Notes: generated by a model not told the origin, from the sequence alone. Positions 36,007-46,249 are shown, counted from the stretch's first letter. The stretch: 48,215 nt of DNA from Bacillota bacterium (GCA_021783135.1 JAJXUE010000020.1:1-48215); one strand, 5' to 3'. A program made the numbers and translations.

Positions 36007-36846
36007 TTACTGCAATATATCAATGTCAGGTTTATTGGGGTCAGCTGGGTCGGGGCTTTGATAGGGGGCATCATTGCCGTTGCCACTCACGAAGGACCGC
36101 GCGCGATCTGCCCAGGACATGCCCCCTTCAACTGAACGCACAGCTACGGAGTGGAGGTTGTTGCGGGCTGACGGCCAGAGCAAGAAAGCTACAGCGGATG
36201 CGCCAATGCCCCAAAGAAACCCTTTGCGCTGACCGACATTCAGCATGCTTGACATCCGCCCCCATACCCCTGTTGTGTTGCCGGGTTTGGCCTCGATGCG
36301 TTGGATGACATCTTTCAACGGTACACCCTGTTGATTGGCCTCAAGGGCGATGGACTCCGCGATGGCTCTGGTCTGGGGGTCAGTCACGGGAGCTCTGCTT
36401 TGGGCGCTGTGGATAGCTTGCAACTCGCGGCGTAAATCGCCGCGGATGTTGTCTAAAGTGCGATAACGCTCATCTACCATACGGTTAAGGTTTGGATCGG
36501 CAAGGACTTGGCCATAACCCGCTGCTTGGGCGAATTTAGTTGCTCTCTGAGCCTCAATTTCGGCCATTAGTTCTTGCTTGATACTGTCAACAATGGTGCG
36601 ATTGTATGGGGCGACGGTGGAGTAGGGGTTGCCATAGTTATTGCCATAGAGCTCTTCGCCTAGTTCAAACATCACTTCTTGTTTGACCTGATTTAAATCG
36701 TTATAATCAGGCCAGGTTCGATAATTCCAACTGCCGTTAGGGCGGGTGTAATTTGGCGTATAGCCATATGACGAGTTTCCGTTTTGCAGTTCGCGCAAGA
36801 TTTCGCGTTTAACATCTTGTTTGAGAGCTGCTTTGGTGTTCTGCAA
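36007..36846 (-). CDS. KQEV-motif repeat protein with C-terminal membrane segment, 279 residues
   Basis: I do not recognise a named family. Four copies of a short amphipathic helix motif lie at about 6-22 (LKQDVKREILRELQ), 51-64 (LNQVKQEVMFELGE), 85-99 (IVDSIKQELMAEIEA) and, weaker, 131-145 (LDNIRGDLRRELQAI), separated by Tyr/Asn/Pro-rich linkers. Residues ~205-226 (GQRKGFLWGIGASAVAFLLWP) are a glycine-containing membrane helix, followed by ADRARSFVSG and an acidic tail. The start is TTG 36846 after GGAGTG. It lies 12 bases downstream of the 163-residue repeat protein gene. The C-terminal module resembles that of the protein encoded at 45395-45874. Confidence 0.75.
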   Translation of the reverse strand: MQNTKAALKQDVKREILRELQNGNSSYGYTPNYTRPNGSWNYRTWPDYNDLNQVKQEVMFELGEELYGNNYGNPYSTVAPYNRTIVDSIKQELMAEIEAQRATKFAQAAGYGQVLADPNLNRMVDERYRTLDNIRGDLRRELQAIHSAQSRAPVTDPQTRAIAESIALEANQQGVPLKDVIQRIEAKPGNTTGVWGRMSSMLNVGQRKGFLWGIGASAVAFLLWPSARNNLHSVAVRSVEGGMSWADRARSFVSGNGNDAPYQSPDPADPNKPDIDILQ

Positions 36847-36858
36847 TGATACTCACTC

Positions 36859-37350
36859 CTAGTCTTTTTGGATTTGCTGCGGCTGCCGCTGAAGGTCGAA
36901 CATCACCTCCTGCTTGATTGCTTGGACCATGGTTGGATCACTATAATAACGGGTTTGATAATCATACCTAGAATGTGGCCGGTTGGCGTGGCTTTCTTGT
37001 TCTGCCTCCAGCTGGGCCAGCACGTCTTGTTTAATAGCTTCGACTAATGCGCGGTCCGGATACGCCGGAGTTGCATGATACGGATGAAAGTTGGGGGCAA
37101 TAGATTGGGGGTATATTTGTCTTGGCGCTGGTTGGAACTGTTGGCGGTAGAGGTGTTCAGAGTTTTCCTGCTGCAATTCCCAGAGGACTTCTTGTTTAAC
37201 CATGGACAATAAAGCATTGTCACCGTACGAACTGCTTGTCTGTGCAGGATAGTTTGTTACTCCATAGGACCGACTTTGTTGTTGCAGTTCAGCCAAAACC
37301 TCGTGTTTGACGTCTTGGGCTAAAGATTGACGAGTTGCATTCTTGTGCAT
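36859..37350 (-). CDS. KQEV-motif repeat protein, 163 residues
   Basis: I do not recognise a named family. The same helix motif occurs four times: residues 10-24 (LAQDVKHEVLAELQQ), 47-61 (LLSMVKQEVLWELQQ), 102-116 (LVEAIKQDVLAQLEA) and 141-155 (MVQAIKQEVMFDLQR). Linkers are rich in Tyr, Gln, Ser and Pro. There is no membrane segment. The ATG at 37350 follows GGAGGT. It forms a two-gene unit with the 279-residue protein and lies directly downstream of the P-type ATPase gene on the same strand, separated by a terminator. It may act as a multivalent scaffold through the repeated helices; this is inferred only from the repeat pattern. Confidence 0.75.
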   Translation of the reverse strand: MHKNATRQSLAQDVKHEVLAELQQQSRSYGVTNYPAQTSSSYGDNALLSMVKQEVLWELQQENSEHLYRQQFQPAPRQIYPQSIAPNFHPYHATPAYPDRALVEAIKQDVLAQLEAEQESHANRPHSRYDYQTRYYSDPTMVQAIKQEVMFDLQRQPQQIQKD

Positions 37351-37520: not shown

Positions 37521-37547
37521 TAAAGGCCTGAGGTTAAGCCTCAGGCC
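37521..37547 (-). terminator. Terminator overlapping the stop codon of the minus-strand P-type ATPase
   Basis: GGCCTGAGG (37525-37533) and CCTCAGGCC (37539-37547) form a perfect 9-bp stem whose 5-base loop contains the TAA stop codon of the ATPase gene (37534-37536). On the minus strand TTTAGCC follows, so the T-tract is short. Confidence 0.65.
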
Positions 37548-40500
37548 CTTGACCTAAGAGGGCAACTGGTTGAGCGGGTCCTGGCAGCCTGCGTTGCCCC
37601 CTAGTTGATTCCAGCTTGGCGAACCAGGTATCGAGTCTGCTGACAAAACTGGATGTAAAGCCGATTAAGGCCCAATCGGCAAGACCCATGGGGATGGTAG
37701 AGAACAAGGGACGAATTACCGGTACGTACATGGTCAGTAACAACATGCCGGTGGATAAACCGGCGGCCGGCAAAATATAAGGGTTAACGGCGGTTGAAGC
37801 TAAGCGAAGTTGGGTGCGGCGGGTGTCAAACAGACTGAAAACCCTGCCCATGACCAAGTGGGAAAAGGCCATGGTTCTGGCCTTCATGGGAACCCAACCG
37901 TAAGCTAATCCACCGGCATAAACTCCAAAGGTAGTTAAGCCTGTCAAAATTCCTTTGCGGATAATTTCTTTTTTATTTTGCGCGGAAAATCTTTGTTGCG
38001 GTTTTAGCGGCGGACGATTCATGCACTCCGGGTGGGGGGGATCACCCGTTAAGGCCATTGCGGGAACTCCCTCTGTGACCAGATTTATCCACAATATTTG
38101 CGGTGGGAGTAAGGGTGTCGGCAATCCTACAACCGCAGCCAAAAAGACTGCGAGGACTTGGCCTACGCTGCCGGATAGGACGTAGCGTACCGACTTAGTC
38201 AGGTTCTCCCCAACTGTCCGGCCTTCCTCGATCCCGGCGACAATAGTGGAAAAATTGTCATCACTAAGTGTTATGCCGGCGGCCTCCCGTGTAACATCAG
38301 TTCCGGCTATGCCCATGGCGACCCCGATATCGGCTTCTTTAACCGCCGGAGCGTCGTTGACGCCGTCGCCGGTCATAGCTACAATGTGGCCGCGGTGTTT
38401 AAGTGCTTGGACAATGCGTAATTTTTGATCGGGTGAGGTGCGGGAGTACACCACGATCTTATCGACTTGAGCCTGCAAAGCTGCTTCAGAAAGTTGATTA
38501 AGGTCCGTCCCGGTTATGCTCGCCCCGGTAGCCAATATACCTAATTTGGCGGCAACTGCCTCTGCGGTTTTGTGATGGTCGCCCGTTATCATCACAACTT
38601 TAATTCCGGCGCGATGACACTTGCTGATGGCGTATTTAACGCCTGGACGCGGCGGATCAACCATCCCTAATAAACCGGCAAATACCAAGCCTGTTAGGTC
38701 ACAAGCAGCGGAATCTGTATCAGGCGGTAAAACCTTCCAGGCGGTAGAGATGACACGCAGAGCCTTACCAGCCATAGAATCGTTATTTAACAAAATATTG
38801 CGTCGGGTTTTGATGTCTAACGGAATTAAGCCGTCACTGGACCAAATATAACTGCAACGTTCCAACACGGTGTCTACAGCACCTTTCACATAAATGTAAT
38901 TTGTTCCGCTAGCATCGCGGCAAACCACACTCATCATGCGCAAGGTTGAATCAAAGGCAGTTTCATGCTCGCGGCAATGCTCCCGGCGCAGGTCTTCCCA
39001 CCACAGCCCGGCTTTGGCGGCAGCTGCCACCAAAGCTCCTTCGGTGGGATCGCCGATCATTTCCCAAAGGCCGTTGGCGCCGCGGCGTAATTCAGAGTTG
39101 TTGCACAGAGTGCCGATGGTCAGAGTTGTTATTAAGTCTGGAAATGCCTCCGGTCGGATAACTTGTTGGTGGTAGAGTAATTTTCCTTGGGGTTGATAGC
39201 CCTCACCGCTTACTTCGAAGGTGGCGGACGGCGTGAATATTTCCGTGACTGTCATTGCATTTTGGGTCAAGGTCCCAGTTTTGTCGGTGCAGATAATGGT
39301 GGTAGAACCAAGCGTTTCCACAGCCGGCAGGCGACGTACGACAGCGTTGCGCTTGACCATTCTTTGGACACCGGCGGCTAGGGCCACTGTCACTACTGCC
39401 GGTAGTCCCTCGGGAATTGCACCAACGGCCAGACTTACTCCGGTGCGCAGTATTTCTAAAATCGGCCGGCCTTGGATGAGGTTGAGTATGGCGATAACAC
39501 TGACAGAGGCGGCAACTACGGCGGAGATACTCTTGCCCAGTGCTTCCATTTGTTTTTGGAGTACTGTAGGTTCTGGCGTGACGTTTTTCAACAGACTGGC
39601 GATCTTGCCCATCTCTGTTTGCATGCCGGTATAAATTACTACTGCCATGCAACGACCGCCGGTTACCATGGTGCCGGCAAAAACCATATTTTCGATATCC
39701 CCAATTGATTGACTCCGGTGGGTGCAAATCGTAGTGCTTTTGGCGACGGCAAGGGACTCCCCTGTTAAACACGATTCATTAGCGGTGAGGTTGACAGCCT
39801 GTAGTAATCTGGCGTCGGCCGGAACCCTGTCGCCGGCTTCGAGAGAGATAATGTCACCGGGCACCAGAAATTTGGCAGCCAATTTATTAAGTTTGCCGGA
39901 TCTGAGGGCATTTGCAGTCGGGGCGCTTAGCTCTTGTAAGGCTGCCAGTGACTTTTCCGCCCGGTAACCCTGAACAGTCTCAATTACTGCCTGGAGGCCA
40001 ACTATTACTACGATTACCAGCGCATCCGAAAATTCCCCAACGATTAAGGATACCCCGGCTGCAAGTAACAGTAGTTTCGGCATAAAACCTCGCAGTGGCT
40101 CCAGGAGCATTTGCCCCAGGGATGATTTAGGTTTTACAGCCAATTGATTATAGCCGTAGAGGCGTAATCTCTGTACGGCTGCTGCAGTTGTCAAGCCCAG
40201 TTCTTCGTTAGCTTGCAGACGTCTAAGCACTTGTGGCGTATCCAGTGCATGCCAGGGTATTTTGCCTGGCGTGGCAACGGGAGGGGTTACTGCGCAAGCT
40301 GCTGTGGGAGCAGGCTTAAGCTGGGTACGCCTGGTTTTTCGGTTTACAGGCAAACCCCACATTTCGCCTAAGAGCATGGCGATGTTGACTTTATCACGCT
40401 CGTAATATAGCAAAATCCGGCCGGAAACCGGGTTAACATAACCTACCTTGATACCGGATAGCTTGCTCAGACGGTAAGCGAGACCGCGGGCCATGGTTTG

Positions 40501-40593
40501 GTTGCCCTGCAGGCCGGGAACGCTCACACGCAGACGTCCTGGCAATAAGTGGATATATGATTTGTCGCCTTCCGCTTGAACTTTTATCGACAT
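37534..40593 (-). CDS. P2-type cation-transporting ATPase with N-terminal PGRLR (HMA-like) domain
   Basis: A 1019-residue P-type ATPase. Residues ~14-75 form an HMA-like domain carrying LLPGRLRVSVPGL instead of a CxxC metal site. Then come the cation ATPase N-terminal domain, TGES (CLTGESLAVAKS), TM4 IPEGLPAVVTVALAAG, the phosphorylation site ICTDKTGTLTQN with Asp near residue 437, TGDHHKTAEAVA, GDGVNDAPAVKEADIGVAMG, and TM6 NLVTEGVPAMALTGDPP. PEGLP plus NLVT.G.PA match Ca2+-ATPase-type (PMCA/SERCA-like) transporters, so Ca2+ or Mn2+ efflux is likely. I start at ATG 40593 after GGGGAGGT rather than the ATG seven codons upstream. It is divergent from a second ATPase gene. Confidence 0.9.
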   Translation of the reverse strand: MSIKVQAEGDKSYIHLLPGRLRVSVPGLQGNQTMARGLAYRLSKLSGIKVGYVNPVSGRILLYYERDKVNIAMLLGEMWGLPVNRKTRRTQLKPAPTAACAVTPPVATPGKIPWHALDTPQVLRRLQANEELGLTTAAAVQRLRLYGYNQLAVKPKSSLGQMLLEPLRGFMPKLLLLAAGVSLIVGEFSDALVIVVIVGLQAVIETVQGYRAEKSLAALQELSAPTANALRSGKLNKLAAKFLVPGDIISLEAGDRVPADARLLQAVNLTANESCLTGESLAVAKSTTICTHRSQSIGDIENMVFAGTMVTGGRCMAVVIYTGMQTEMGKIASLLKNVTPEPTVLQKQMEALGKSISAVVAASVSVIAILNLIQGRPILEILRTGVSLAVGAIPEGLPAVVTVALAAGVQRMVKRNAVVRRLPAVETLGSTTIICTDKTGTLTQNAMTVTEIFTPSATFEVSGEGYQPQGKLLYHQQVIRPEAFPDLITTLTIGTLCNNSELRRGANGLWEMIGDPTEGALVAAAAKAGLWWEDLRREHCREHETAFDSTLRMMSVVCRDASGTNYIYVKGAVDTVLERCSYIWSSDGLIPLDIKTRRNILLNNDSMAGKALRVISTAWKVLPPDTDSAACDLTGLVFAGLLGMVDPPRPGVKYAISKCHRAGIKVVMITGDHHKTAEAVAAKLGILATGASITGTDLNQLSEAALQAQVDKIVVYSRTSPDQKLRIVQALKHRGHIVAMTGDGVNDAPAVKEADIGVAMGIAGTDVTREAAGITLSDDNFSTIVAGIEEGRTVGENLTKSVRYVLSGSVGQVLAVFLAAVVGLPTPLLPPQILWINLVTEGVPAMALTGDPPHPECMNRPPLKPQQRFSAQNKKEIIRKGILTGLTTFGVYAGGLAYGWVPMKARTMAFSHLVMGRVFSLFDTRRTQLRLASTAVNPYILPAAGLSTGMLLLTMYVPVIRPLFSTIPMGLADWALIGFTSSFVSRLDTWFAKLESTRGQRRLPGPAQPVALLGQGPEA

Positions 40594-40644
40594 CAAATAC
40601 CTCCCCAATGACACTTAGTAGGGTTATTGTGTGTAAAAAGCAAG

Positions 40645-40653: not shown

Positions 40654-40715
40654 CTCGATTTAGGCGGGAAATCTACGGAATGAATTATGTATGGGTTGGG
40701 AAGGGAGGGCTAGGT

Positions 40716-43700
40716 TTGCGGGTTATCCACTATTTGCCAGGAAGGTTGCGGGTGGAAATAAGTGCATTACGGCATGATACTGCACTAGCAAGGTGCTTAC
40801 AGCGCGAGTTAAGACAAGTTACTGGTATAGGCGCAGTACAGGTAAATCAGGTATCGGCCAGAATACTAATTGAATATTTTCCCAGTCAAGTAAATTGCCA
40901 CACTGTGCAAAAGTACATCGAACAATGCCTTGTAAGCGTGAAGTTGGAGTTTAAGCAGCAGGTCGAAATTGCGGTCGCAAGTGAGCAGATGCTGGCAATA
41001 GATGAATCGGGCAGTATGCCGTCGACACAACCGACGGAAATTGTGGCCACGCTGCAAACTGATACTCTTGACGGCTTGACTGCAAGTGAAGCTAGGCAGC
41101 GCTTTGAGCAGTATGGGGCAAATTTATTGCCGAGTACGGCACAGCCCACCATAGTGCATATTTTTATCCGAACGCTAACCGAAAGTTATATGAGCAAAGT
41201 TTTATTGGGTCTGGGCGCGTTTGCCCTGATAATGGGCAAACAGACCAATGCTATGATGAGTATCGGCGTGTTAATCGCCAATACAACGATGGCTGTTGTG
41301 CAAGAACACCGTACCCAAAACTCCTTGGACATGTTAAAAGAGTTAGTTCATACCAAGACCAGCGTGGTTAGAGATGGACAGAGTATGGAGCTGGAAGCAA
41401 GCAAATTGGTTCCGGGGGACATTATTACATTAGAGGCCGGCGATAAGGTCCCGGCAGATGCCTGCTTGTTAACAGCGACACAGTTGGTGGTGGAAGAGGC
41501 TTCATTGACTGGGGAATCCATTCCGGTAACCAAGGATGCAGCTGGCAAGCAGAAAGCGCGCTCCATCTATATGGGCACCGGTATACTCAGTGGCAGGGCC
41601 AAAGCAGTGGTGGTGAGCACAGGTCAAAACACGGAAATTGGACGTATTTCACGTACTATGATTATGTCACCCAGCCGTACTCCGTTTTATCAGCGCCTGG
41701 ACGAAGTATTTGTCAGTTTAGTCAATGGCGCACTGGTTATTAGCGGTGTTGCCGTTATGGCTGGATTGTGGCACAGGCAATCCGTCGGAAACATTATTGA
41801 AAGTGCGACCGGACTGGCGGTATCGTTTATTCCCGATGGGTTGGCACCTATTATCACGTTGGCCACGGCGTTAGGCGCGATGCGCTTGTTAAAGCAACAG
41901 GTCGCGCTGCGTCAGATGCCTGCCGTGGATACCTTAGGCTGTACTACAGTAATTTGTTGTGATAAGACCGGAACGTTGACGTGTAATAAAATGCAAGTGC
42001 AGGAAGTGTATTGCCCGGGGATGCACTGGCAGGTTAATGCGGGGAAATTCGTGGCGCGCGAGACGGTAAATCCAAGCGAAATATCGACCGAGATACCAAG
42101 TGAGATACCAAGTGAGTCGTTGCGTGAGCTGTTCCTAATCGCTGCAACATGTAATAATGCGCGGCTCACGGAGGACGGTGTCGGAGGCCTTAGCGGCACA
42201 GGCGACAGCACTGAAGTAGCTTTACTACTGGGGGCTCGCTGGGCAGGACTCGGGGAGCGGCGCGACAATGAAGTGTTGACGCGTCTGATGGAAATCCCAT
42301 TTAGTTCAGATAACATGTATATGGCAGTAATAGTTAGAGACAGCCAAGGGAGGGTGTGGTCTCTAGTTAAAGGTGCACCTGACATAATTTTGGCTAGGTG
42401 TACTTCGCTTAAACGCGGTCATAATATTATCCCCATGCACAGCGACTACAGGGCAGAATGTTTAGCTGAAATTCGCGCCATGTCCGGGCGTGCCCTTAGG
42501 GTGTTAGCGCTAGCTTTTAAACCTTGGCAACAAGGTGAGGGTGAAGCAACTGAGCTATGTTTTGGCGGGTTAGTAGGCATCATTGATCCACCGCGGCCCG
42601 AAGCGGCAGGTTTTGTTGCAAGTTGTCACAGGGCAGGTGTGCGGGTAGTAATGCTAACCGGTGACCACCGAGACACAGCCTTAGCCCTTGGGAGCATAAT
42701 CGGTATTACTGCCAGTGAGGCTCAAGTCGTAACGGGCAAAGAACTAGCGAGTATGGACCCGGAGGAGTTGGCGCGAGTGGTGCAAAAAGCGAGAATATAC
42801 GCTCGTACCTCTCCCGACCAAAAGCAGTACATAGTGCGGGCGTTAAAAGAACAAGGTGAAGTGGTAACCATGGTGGGTGACGGCGTCAATGATGTGCCTG
42901 CCATCAAAGAAGCGCATTTGGGAGTTGCGATGGCAACGGGGGGCACGGCAGTAGCACGCGAAAGCGCTGCGATTGCGCTGACTGACGATAACATTGGCGG
43001 TTTGGTAGAGGCGATTAAAGAGGGCCGCAATGTGTATGCGAATATTCGCAGAACACTGCGCTATATGATTACTACCAATTTTGGTGACGGTATCGTAATT
43101 TTACTTGCCGCAATTATGGGCCGCCCTATACCGCTGACTCCCCTGCAGTTATTGTGGTTAAACGCTACCAGTGATCCCTATGTATCTTGGTCCCTAGCTA
43201 ATTTTCCCCCGAGCAGCACCGCGATGGCGGAACCGCCGCGTAAAGCTGACGTTGGTATTTTTGCGCTCGGATTAGGAAGGAAAATCTTATCCCGCAGCGT
43301 GTGCTTAGGTATAAGTGCCTTCATGACCTATAGTCATTCAATCGCTGCAGGAGAAAATATTGATCTGACACGCACGCAAACTATGGCCGCGTTGGGGGTG
43401 GGACGGTTGCTGCATGTGAGCGATTTTTACCGCCGCCAAGGGGACAAGGCTGTCAATAAATACTTAGCTCGCGGTGGCTTGTCCATGGTAAGTGCATTAT
43501 TGGGTGCAACTTATCTGCCGGGCCTTGCGCCATGGCTGCATACTAGGCCGCTGCGTCTTCAACACTGGTATTCTGTTTTAGGGTGGTCAAGTCTGGGTTT
43601 TCTAGCGGACACAAGTTTCAACCGTTTAGTGACGGGGCGTAAATGGCGGCAGCAACAGGCGGCCGGAATTAAACAAGATCCCCAACGTGCTGATGTTTTG

Positions 43701-43718
43701 CAGTACAGCCATTCCTAG
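40716..43718 (+). CDS. Divergent P-type ATPase with N-terminal PGRLR (HMA-like) domain
   Basis: A ~1000-residue P-type ATPase. The N-terminal HMA-like domain contains HYLPGRLRVEISAL. The catalytic core is intact: TGESIPVTKD, ICCDKTGTLTCNK with Asp near residue 416, KGAPDII, MLTGDHRDTALALG and GDGVNDVPAIKEAHLGVAMA. TM4 reads IPDGLAPIITLA rather than PEGLP, and TM6 reads NATSDPYVSWSLA rather than NLVT.GLPA, so the ion-binding site differs from standard Ca2+ pumps. A TTG at 40716 has GGGAGG seven bases upstream and places the start just before the conserved domain; an ATG at 40680 in frame has a weak site. Its last 93 bases overlap the convergent pseudo-ATPase gene. Confidence 0.88.
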   Translation: MRVIHYLPGRLRVEISALRHDTALARCLQRELRQVTGIGAVQVNQVSARILIEYFPSQVNCHTVQKYIEQCLVSVKLEFKQQVEIAVASEQMLAIDESGSMPSTQPTEIVATLQTDTLDGLTASEARQRFEQYGANLLPSTAQPTIVHIFIRTLTESYMSKVLLGLGAFALIMGKQTNAMMSIGVLIANTTMAVVQEHRTQNSLDMLKELVHTKTSVVRDGQSMELEASKLVPGDIITLEAGDKVPADACLLTATQLVVEEASLTGESIPVTKDAAGKQKARSIYMGTGILSGRAKAVVVSTGQNTEIGRISRTMIMSPSRTPFYQRLDEVFVSLVNGALVISGVAVMAGLWHRQSVGNIIESATGLAVSFIPDGLAPIITLATALGAMRLLKQQVALRQMPAVDTLGCTTVICCDKTGTLTCNKMQVQEVYCPGMHWQVNAGKFVARETVNPSEISTEIPSEIPSESLRELFLIAATCNNARLTEDGVGGLSGTGDSTEVALLLGARWAGLGERRDNEVLTRLMEIPFSSDNMYMAVIVRDSQGRVWSLVKGAPDIILARCTSLKRGHNIIPMHSDYRAECLAEIRAMSGRALRVLALAFKPWQQGEGEATELCFGGLVGIIDPPRPEAAGFVASCHRAGVRVVMLTGDHRDTALALGSIIGITASEAQVVTGKELASMDPEELARVVQKARIYARTSPDQKQYIVRALKEQGEVVTMVGDGVNDVPAIKEAHLGVAMATGGTAVARESAAIALTDDNIGGLVEAIKEGRNVYANIRRTLRYMITTNFGDGIVILLAAIMGRPIPLTPLQLLWLNATSDPYVSWSLANFPPSSTAMAEPPRKADVGIFALGLGRKILSRSVCLGISAFMTYSHSIAAGENIDLTRTQTMAALGVGRLLHVSDFYRRQGDKAVNKYLARGGLSMVSALLGATYLPGLAPWLHTRPLRLQHWYSVLGWSSLGFLADTSFNRLVTGRKWRQQQAAGIKQDPQRADVLQYSHS

Positions 43719-45398
43719 CGGGGTAAGCGTGTTGCTTAGGCCAAGTGCCAGCCCGATGATGTTCGACCCCAAGCTAAGAGTGGTATTTTGCAGCGCAATA
43801 TGCATACCGGCTTGGGCTAGGGATCTAAGCCAAGCTAGGGTGCGGGGGTCCTGCCCGATGATGATGATGTTGGCAGACTCAAGGTTTAAATTTTCACTTG
43901 AACCAGCTGTAATACCTACATCTGCTGCAGCTAATGCCGGAGCATCGCCGGTGGCGTCGCCAATTACAGCCACTTTATGACCGTCGCATTGCAATTGGCG
44001 AACCATGGCTACTTTTTTGTCAGCGGTGCAGTTAGGTTGACAATCGCTGATCCTCAGCCGTCGAGCGGTTGTTTGCGTTTGGGCAGCATCTGCGTCGGTA
44101 ACTAAAGCAATGTGGGATACTTTAGCTAAGCGTAATGCGCGTACCATGCTTACGTCGTAGTTGTGGTGTGGCGGAAGCAGATCAAGTTGGGTAAACACGA
44201 AGGAGTTTGCTTTACTTATCGTTTCGACATGAATATCATCTTTAATTAATACGCCATGACAAGCTGCTTTGCTTGCAGCGGTACCTAAGGCTAGGGATGT
44301 CGCCATCCCCGCTGCTCCCGGTGCGCCCACTACCAACAGCATAATTGCTCGCCGCGTATCACCTGTTAACAGAAAGACACCGATTGCTGTCGTGAGCGAT
44401 GCTAAGGATATACGATGCATTAGGACGCTTATTTGATGGTCTAAGTGTGCTGATTTAGGGTGGCGCCGGAGCATGCTAAGGATGCGCCCGGTATATGTTC
44501 TTTGCCCGATGCGTTCTGCAACAATGTTAAGCTGCCCTTGCTGGAGGGTACTGCCGGCAAAAACAGCAGACCCGGCTGCGACTTTTTCAGGTATGGCTTG
44601 ACCTCTCAAGGGGTAGGGCTTAATTATGGCGGTGCCGCTCGCCACATGCCCGTCAACCGGAATGTTTTCCCCTGTGTGGACAATAACGGTTTGACCGTGG
44701 GTTAATTTGTGGCGCGAGATAATAATGGGCCCCTGCGGTGCGAATAACCTAACATAACGTTGCCTTCCAGCTAATAAGAACGCAATTTTGTCACGGGCAT
44801 GTTCTGCGGCAATAGTGCGTAATAAGGCACTTAAGTAGGTAAGAAAATGGATGAAGGCGCTGAGACTGTTTGCCTCGATAGTTAGTGAGCCTAAAGAAGC
44901 GATGCCGGAGAGCAACTCTGTACTCAGATGTCCTTTTTTGAGCAGGTGGTCTGTCGCAGTTTTAAAGATAGGATAACCGCTCAAGATGGTCAGGGCAGTG
45001 TTGGCGCGACGGAGGGGTTGGGCGTTATAGGTTGTGCTATACTTTTTAACTGAGTGTTTGCTACCGGAATATACAAATAATAGTCCTGAGGCTAGTGTCC
45101 AAAACAGCTGACGGACAATGGGCAGACTCTCCAGCTCTAACACAGTGTCAGGTACGGCATGTTGCGGACGCAAAACTACCAGACAACTCTTAACCTGCTT
45201 GATGACATTGGGCAGGGTTAACAATTGGGGCGGGTATTTCAACAGAAGACGTGCGCTCCGACAATCCACTTGGACATCGCTAATGACGCTGCTAGCGGTG
45301 AGTTCTTTGACCAGACGGGAAGCCAAATCAGGTCGGTGGTACAGTTCTGGCACTTCCAGACGTAAACGTCCTGGTAGATGATGCACAATGTGCATCAT
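43626..45398 (-). CDS. Catalytically dead P-type ATPase-like protein with N-terminal PGRLR domain
   Basis: A 590-residue protein built like a P1B-type ATPase. The N-terminal domain has HHLPGRLRLEVPEL. The transmembrane and actuator parts follow, with HTGENIPVDG recognisable. However the TGE loop reads Arg265-Gly-Gln, the TM metal motif CPC reads Ala359-Pro-Gly, and DKTGT reads FTQLDL with Thr403 replacing the phosphorylated Asp. Only ~83 residues separate this from GDATGDAPALAAADVGI, so the nucleotide-binding domain is missing. The open frame is intact and long, which argues against simple decay. It starts by a 4-base ATGA overlap with the upstream repeat-motif membrane protein gene. A regulatory or structural role beside the two active ATPases is inferred. 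Confidence 0.85.
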   Translation of the reverse strand: MMHIVHHLPGRLRLEVPELYHRPDLASRLVKELTASSVISDVQVDCRSARLLLKYPPQLLTLPNVIKQVKSCLVVLRPQHAVPDTVLELESLPIVRQLFWTLASGLLFVYSGSKHSVKKYSTTYNAQPLRRANTALTILSGYPIFKTATDHLLKKGHLSTELLSGIASLGSLTIEANSLSAFIHFLTYLSALLRTIAAEHARDKIAFLLAGRQRYVRLFAPQGPIIISRHKLTHGQTVIVHTGENIPVDGHVASGTAIIKPYPLRGQAIPEKVAAGSAVFAGSTLQQGQLNIVAERIGQRTYTGRILSMLRRHPKSAHLDHQISVLMHRISLASLTTAIGVFLLTGDTRRAIMLLVVGAPGAAGMATSLALGTAASKAACHGVLIKDDIHVETISKANSFVFTQLDLLPPHHNYDVSMVRALRLAKVSHIALVTDADAAQTQTTARRLRISDCQPNCTADKKVAMVRQLQCDGHKVAVIGDATGDAPALAAADVGITAGSSENLNLESANIIIIGQDPRTLAWLRSLAQAGMHIALQNTTLSLGSNIIGLALGLSNTLTPLGMAVLQNISTLGILFNSGRLLLPPFTPRH

Positions 45399-45874
45399 GG
45401 GCGCGGCGGCTCTGGTTGGTGAGTTTGTTCCGGGTCCATGAATTCTTTCTGCCAGCGATTAAAACTCGCTTCAGCCACGATGTCTTCCATGCCTTCTTTA
45501 GTACGCACTAGCATGGATTTTGCTCTATCGACAATTTCTGACCCATCTGTCACTGTTCTATTTACCAGTTTGCGCAGCTTAAGGTTGACTGAGGGTAAAA
45601 TCAAAGCACCTACGGCTACGGCGCCAAGACCATATAAAACCCCTTTGAATTGACCGTTGTTCAGAGCATTTGCCAGGCGCGCAGTTATACCGGGTTCGCC
45701 GGTTGGGGGTAGAGATGGAGGCACCCAGGTTGAGTTAGATGGTTGGCGGGAATTTGCTACTAGGGTACTGGCAATGTCGCGATAGGGGTCTGCCTGCCGC
45801 AATTCGTAGTTGGGCAAATCAGCTAGCACTGCTTGTTTTACACTTTCTACCAAGTCTCGCCGGTAAAATTCCAC
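45395..45874 (-). CDS. KQEV-motif membrane protein, 159 residues
   Basis: I do not recognise a named family. One helix motif lies at residues 8-20 (LVESVKQAVLADL), then a Pro/Ser-rich linker. A membrane segment at ~77-95 (FKGVLYGLGAVAVGALILP) is followed by a long charged helix (LRKLVNRTVTDGSEIVDRAKSML through EGMEDIVAEA). The segment around FKGVLYGLGA and the following DRAKS correspond to RKGFLWGIGA and DRARS in the 279-residue protein, so the two share this module. YtxH-like and DUF5132-like small membrane proteins have a similar outline; I could not test this. It overlaps the pseudo-ATPase start codon, implying coupled synthesis. Confidence 0.75.
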   Translation of the reverse strand: MEFYRRDLVESVKQAVLADLPNYELRQADPYRDIASTLVANSRQPSNSTWVPPSLPPTGEPGITARLANALNNGQFKGVLYGLGAVAVGALILPSVNLKLRKLVNRTVTDGSEIVDRAKSMLVRTKEGMEDIVAEASFNRWQKEFMDPEQTHQPEPPRP

Positions 45875-46015: not shown

Positions 46016-46249
46016 ATGCAGCAAGATGCTACTTCGGAAATAAGGGTCAAGATGACGCAAGCGTTAGGTTTACTCAAAGAAGCGTTAAATATTAGCTTGC
46101 CTCTGTTACACACCAACCAAAAACAAGGTGTAATTGCAATTTGGGAAGGCTTTATTCGCGAGGTGGTTACCACTGTCAAGCGGAGATCCCATGAATCCGG
46201 CCTTAATTTACTTAGCTTCATTTCGTTTAAGCGGATTTGGCTAAAGTAA
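46016..46249 (+). CDS. Small hypothetical protein, 77 residues
   Basis: I do not recognise it. The sequence is largely helical and amphipathic (IRVKMTQALGLLKEALNISLPLL, then IWEGFIREVVTTVKRRS) with a basic C-terminus. There is no clear membrane helix. GGAGG lies nine bases before the ATG at 46016. It is transcribed divergently from the 159-residue repeat-motif gene and ends 17 bases before the convergent YetF-type gene. Whether it belongs to the ATPase cluster is unknown. Confidence 0.6.
   Translation: MQQDATSEIRVKMTQALGLLKEALNISLPLLHTNQKQGVIAIWEGFIREVVTTVKRRSHESGLNLLSFISFKRIWLK

Follow-up and report, generated by a model that had tools for sequence, protein, structure and literature searches.

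A pseudo-P1B ATPase in a Bacillota genome: an intact gene without catalytic motifs, possibly a non-catalytic subunit beside P2 pumps

P-type ATPases are usually regarded as self-contained pumps. The locus analyzed here raises the question of what a member of this superfamily does when the motifs needed for pumping have gone from an intact gene, and whether such a gene is decaying or is kept for another function. The gene lies in a stretch of 48,215 nucleotides from a Bacillota bacterium (GCA_021783135.1 JAJXUE010000020.1:1-48215), called the window below, in which positions are counted from the first letter.

Reading frame, lost motifs and predicted fold

The preliminary description of this DNA had reported an uninterrupted frame of 590 codons at 43626-45398 on the minus strand, and this was borne out: the frame opens with ATG and contains zero internal stops. 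Its features are listed here with the evidence for each in brackets.

43626..45398, minus strand: pseudo-P1B ATPase, 590 aa, ATG start (open frame; Pfam; structural matches)
45171..45392, minus strand: HMA_2 ferredoxin-like domain, residues ~3-76, without CxxC (Pfam and model)
44517..44756, minus strand: A (actuator) domain, residues ~215-294 (Pfam E1-E2_ATPase; beta-rich in model)
44598..44606, minus strand: RGQ replacing TGE, residues 265-267 (alignment)
44316..44324, minus strand: APG replacing CPC of TM4, residues 359-361 (alignment)
44178..44192, minus strand: TQLDL replacing DKTGT, residues 403-407 (alignment)
43962..44177, minus strand: shortened stretch between Asp site and hinge, residues 408-479, N domain deleted (spacing and model)
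43944..43961, minus strand: GDATGD replacing GDGxND, residues 480-485 (alignment)

In the Pfam analysis the protein matched E1-E2_ATPase at 82.9 bits (cut-off 28.1), the Hydrolase/P (HAD) domain partially at 31.2 bits (cut-off 26.4) and HMA_2 at 27.2 bits, just below the cut-off of 30. Its nearest NCBIfam families are heavy-metal P1B pumps, with all scores under the curated cut-offs; ATPase-IB_hvy (TIGR01525) gave 202 bits against a cut-off of 346. The motifs were then placed by alignment with ten homologues having complete motifs. The results showed that Thr403 occupies the position of the phosphorylated Asp and that the replacements of DKTGT, TGE and CPC are those first described; in addition, TGD has become TDA and the HN of TM6 has become QN. 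Between Thr403 and Gly480 there are 77 residues, compared with 195-201 in the seven relatives measured, so that about 120 residues, which make up the whole N domain, have been lost. The ~83 residues given earlier for this spacing were close to the measured value, and the claim that the N domain is absent stood. DKTGT, TGE, a CPC-type TM4 motif and a nucleotide-binding domain, which would be expected of an active P1B pump, are all wanting, and the membrane core, A domain and P domain that mark P1B fold and descent are present. Judged from its sequence, the protein has lost all parts required for ATP use or metal carriage: ATP binding would have gone with the N domain, phosphorylation with the Asp, dephosphorylation with TGE and the metal site with CPC and the TM6 HN, and what remains would be the HMA_2 and A domains, a membrane core and a minimal P domain.

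An AlphaFold2 model (mean pLDDT 78) agrees with this description. HMA_2, the membrane helices, the A domain and the P domain are all present, and the chain passes from a P-domain strand through a short loop, at the place of the N domain, to a P-domain helix; a P domain without an N domain was what had been anticipated, and the model has exactly that. In the HMA_2 region strands alternate with helices, with pLDDT mostly ~90. The top structural matches of the model are solved P1B pumps, as with 7qbz (Z 35.1, rmsd 11.8 over 456 residues). The known proteins that serve for comparison are the HMA_2 P1B-type ATPases of Bacillota (P1B6-like, with CPC in TM4 and HN in TM6; compare mycobacterial CtpC), which share its order of domains as far as the P domain and its kind of upstream partner gene, whereas the pseudo-ATPase has lost every catalytic and metal motif as well as the N domain. 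Complete-motif orthologues in close relatives, which the preliminary description took as a sign of recent decay, were not seen, and complete-motif homologues occurred only at ~30% identity.

Retention of the gene and its motif-poor relatives

One account of such a gene would be recent inactivation followed by neutral decay, leaving a pseudogene that is still open by chance. Searches of the family's other two genomes, of 73 genomes from its order and of 398 genomes sampled from the phylum gave no orthologue of the pseudo-ATPase, and a search of genome contigs with the protein returned two distant relatives and no others; the lack of an orthologue, the very long branch of the protein in the tree (3.0 changes per site) and the loss of a whole domain would all suit decay. 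Against it stand the preserved 4-nt operon overlap with the upstream gene and a normal codon usage, the codon adaptation of 0.765 being inside the range of the neighboring genes and above the 0.704 (sd 0.008) expected from base composition. The distribution of changes bears on the same question. Among residues invariant in the complete-motif homologues, the protein keeps 73 of 141 (52%) outside the motifs and 5 of 19 (26%) within them (one-sided Fisher p 0.03), and retention declines steadily with conservation class; the active outlier pump G050 has the opposite pattern, with 20/21 motif residues kept and 102/156 elsewhere. Loss of 14 of the 19 motif residues by drift implies ~1.3 changes per site (Poisson estimate), and at one missense change per site neutrality predicts ~25 stops gene-wide, where the 590 codons contain none. 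It is therefore probable that the motifs went while selection continued on the rest of the gene, although fast motif change under positive selection is possible and would weaken this argument from timing. On these figures neutral decay is very unlikely, and retention of a function, which the preliminary description had proposed to be non-catalytic, is well supported.

Related motif-poor HMA_2-P1B proteins occur in five species (G066, G067, G049, G070 and G061) of one genus of the same order, g3. They are 713-714 aa long, one copy being interrupted by a contig end, are 78-80% identical to the G066 copy, and have DKVPS or DKIPS (DNIPS in G061) at the DKTGT site, SGK, SGI or SGL at TGE, SPS or SPA at CPC and GQ at HN. 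Their mean dN/dS of 0.14 (NG86, ten pairs), low in each domain, indicates strong purifying selection on the g3 protein; this value, like that given below for the pair L096/L099, concerns proteins of relatives and not the pseudo-ATPase of the window. As the nearest stand-in for the orthologue comparison proposed in the preliminary description, the g3 set thus gave a positive result. Like the window protein, the g3 proteins have lost TGE, CPC, the His of TM6 and, within DKTGT, the TGT, and they too share their genomes with a P2 giant or with P2 sequence. Unlike it, they keep the N domain and mostly the Asp, so that they are less degraded, and they are not its close relatives. A milder grade is found in two g16 species and in G036, where TGE, CPC and the TM6 His are lost and DKTGT is kept. 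In the tree analysis, a group made up of the g3 set and the window protein and no others was rejected (p-AU 0.0002), and a single shared origin with those proteins alone is unsupported; a clade with all eight motif-poor proteins was not rejected (p 0.067), and the placement of the window protein is unsure because of its very long branch. Degradation of DKTGT looks to have been independent in the window and g3 lineages.

The Cys of CPC and the His of HN are lost in the window protein and in every motif-poor relative, and this weighs on the idea that the pseudo-ATPase is a passive channel or low-affinity ion conduit along the former transport path. Its TM helices and several TM5-TM6 residues are kept, as such a conduit would need, yet the loss of the metal motifs makes it less likely and we consider it improbable. 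Channel-like conduction, one of the roles first offered for the protein, is thus disfavored, and among those roles a partner or scaffold is favored.

Two further observations were made in the P1B genes of relatives. At L096 (1258-3420, minus strand) and L099 (4594-6753, minus strand) a second HMA_2-type P1B gene adjoins a complete one; it has TGQ for TGE and CPM for CPC, keeps DKTGT and has a dN/dS of ~0.25 (one pair). At L080 (G197:C4 106963-105065) the search counted three stops within the P1B match; the region itself is an open 755-aa frame, and read-through at the end of the match probably produced the counted stops.

The partner gene, the P2 pumps and the giant fusions

Upstream and downstream of the pseudo-ATPase the window contains the following genes.

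45395..45874, minus strand: partner gene, 159 aa, one predicted TM helix, EDIVAEA motif (4-nt ATGA overlap with the pseudo-ATPase)
40680..43718, plus strand: HMA_2-P2 ATPase, 1012 aa, DKTGT, TGES and GDGVND present (93-bp overlap with the pseudo-ATPase tail)
37534..40614, minus strand: HMA_2-P2 ATPase, 1026 aa, catalytic motifs present

Coupling to a partner gene had been described before, and the ATGA overlap with the upstream gene is real. The EDIVAEA motif is conserved among the partner and its relatives, and relatives often have an HMA_2-P1B gene immediately behind that of a small one-TM EDIVAEA protein, as in the window. This layout, one TM helix in an operon with a P-ATPase, is that of the PacL/DUF6110 proteins; PacL proteins stabilize and cluster mycobacterial P-ATPases and have DUF6110 relatives in Firmicutes (PMC9374683, PMC13043812). 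Small size, glycines in the TM helix and a helix containing Glu and Ala are further points of likeness (PMC9374683, PMC13043812). The differences are that neither profile was matched and that a His-rich metal-binding tail is wanting in the window member, whose C-terminus, EFMDPEQTHQPEPPRP, has one His and lacks the C-terminal metal-binding motif of PacL/DUF1490. The partner and its relatives gave no match to DUF1490 or DUF6110 at E up to 10, and some of the relatives match DUF5132 close to its cut-off. A DUF1490 search of 149 phylum genomes returned no matches, with the controls silent too.

At its 3' end the pseudo-ATPase gene overlaps the convergent gene of the 1012-aa P2 pump by 93 bp (43626-43718), tail to tail. 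The M4 of this pump reads PDGL in place of PEGL, and its ion site may be altered; PEGL is kept in the 1026-aa pump and in the giant ATPases of relatives. Elsewhere in the assembly (97% complete) there are a KdpB and a SERCA-like pump, whereas P1B pumps of the CPC type are absent.

The giant ATPases, 1528-1686 aa long, are found in clusters of g3, of g16 and of two genomes of another family (f75). The C-terminal half of the giants is a motif-bearing P2 pump. Their N-terminal half, which lacks both an A domain and DKTGT, aligns to HMA_2-P1B pumps from HMA_2 through the last TM helices (hhalign probability 100, E 2.8e-66), and a weaker model of it (pLDDT 67) again gave P1B pumps as the best matches. 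The dead P1B halves lie at the following positions.

L051, 16304-18250, minus strand: dead P1B half of a giant
L055, 984-2939, plus strand: dead P1B half of a giant
L053, 15666-17717, minus strand: dead P1B half of a giant
L057, 900-3155, plus strand: dead P1B half of a giant
L095, 7438-9312, plus strand: dead P1B half of a giant
L098, 10235-12133, plus strand: dead P1B half of a giant

By description the giants can be likened to FUPA24 and CtpI/CtpH (PMC3573892), and they have the FUPA24 trait of double length with the motifs in the C-terminal half, which no protein of the window has; the window P2 pumps are unfused and 32-43% identical to the P2 halves of the giants. Like the window protein, the N-terminal half of the giants joins HMA_2 to a P1B-derived body without DKTGT and is tied to a P2 pump; unlike it, this half is fused rather than separate and has lost the A domain instead of the N domain. 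An origin of the window protein as a split-off N-terminal half of a giant was considered and rejected, since its A domain, lost from the giants, is present and BLAST places it nearer to stand-alone HMA_2-P1B pumps. P2-pump sequence is present in the same genome for all eight motif-poor relatives (8/8), and in G067 and G036 it adjoins the motif-poor P1B at a contig edge. A giant was detected in 6/8 of these genomes, all but G067 and G036, by a search whose threshold also left the known giants in G197 and G278 undetected. In G197 and G278 complete-motif P1B pumps also adjoin giants, which means that P2 linkage is not confined to dead pumps. Plasmid searches returned no giant with a dead half and only partial P-ATPase matches.

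The 93-bp tail overlap and adjacency with the P2 gene, together with the stabilization of P-ATPases by PacL proteins (PMC9374683), would fit a protein that acts only as an assembly factor during synthesis of the neighboring P2 pump and is no lasting subunit. In relatives, however, a dead P1B half is permanently joined to P2 pumps, which speaks for a lasting partnership, and we give the assembly-factor explanation a small chance.

Proposed role and neighboring small proteins

The retained fold, together with linkage to active pumps and to a clustering-type partner, is best read as that of a non-catalytic subunit or scaffold, and with moderate confidence we propose that the pseudo-ATPase is maintained as such within a P-ATPase membrane complex. 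Its most likely contribution is to help working pumps assemble or switch rather than to pump, and the giants of relatives, in which a similarly dead P1B half is fused to a P2 pump, suggest that its partners are the P2 pumps. The one-TM partner, encoded on the same message, would cluster or stabilize the pseudo-ATPase, as PacL does in mycobacteria; the membrane core and the A and P domains would dock on the two neighboring HMA_2-P2 pumps, and this docking would place or regulate them, where we infer the physical contact, the direction of regulation and the ion. Counting against the scaffold reading are the lack of an orthologue, which makes the evidence for selection on this gene indirect, the long branch behind its tree placement, the distance of the g3 proteins, which are not close relatives and mostly retain Asp and N domain, the complete-motif P1B pumps next to giants in G197 and G278, and the partner's lack of a PacL-type profile match. 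The strongest alternative role is that of a membrane sensor, in which HMA_2 or the membrane core would sense a metal or other signal and relay it to the P2 pumps or to a regulator. HMA_2 and the membrane core are indeed retained and active pumps are adjacent; however, HMA_2 is without CxxC, the TM metal motifs are lost, and no signaling domain or regulator gene was seen beside the pseudo-ATPase, so that a sensor seems unlikely.

If the pseudo-ATPase is a scaffold or subunit, the P-ATPase fold would have been reused in bacteria as a regulatory or structural subunit, and P-ATPase platforms like those of mycobacteria may exist in Bacillota, built from different parts. The protein is read here as a pseudoenzyme of a known superfamily, and the pairing that underlies it may be a general rule. 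We put forward only tentatively, and with some doubt, a general design in which P2 pumps work with a dead P1B, either separate (window, g3) or fused as the N-terminal half (giants). If this holds, dead-pump subunits arose repeatedly, by loss of the N domain, of the A domain or of motifs alone, and the same design could account for the large N-terminal segment that has been described in CtpI/CtpH-type ATPases. The giants, as possible relatives of CtpI/CtpH, would thereby gain a testable reading. CtpI/CtpH-type giants are listed as uncharacterized (PMC10654040, PMC3573892), and a 2023 review considers that CtpI and CtpH are perhaps not functional pumps (PMC10654040); the P1B-derived half of the giants described here may bear on their unexplained N-terminal segment. 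Scaffold functions are mentioned for some eukaryotic flippases (PMC10654040). In the literature searched, no description of a dead P1B pump as partner of P2 pumps was found, and a search on the HMA2 domain, DUF5132 and pseudo or inactive P-type ATPases found no such protein described in what was a limited collection, which is not proof.

Three small genes of the window also have counterparts in relatives.

46016..46249, plus strand: 77-aa helical protein (likeness by eye to proteins of 76-79 aa)
36007..36846, minus strand: 279-aa protein with KQEV-like repeats and a hydrophobic stretch (resembles the partner in part)
36859..37350, minus strand: 163-aa protein with KQEV-like repeats

The 77-aa protein has no Pfam match, and a helical protein of 76-79 aa recurs across many P1B/P2 clusters of relatives. 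The 279- and 163-aa proteins (36007-37350) carry repeated KQEV(L/M)xEL-like motifs and lie beside the 1026-aa P2 pump; look-alikes adjoin a P2 fragment in G002 (L049), and at L095 and L098 similar KQEV-like repeats are fused to an EDIVAEA domain.
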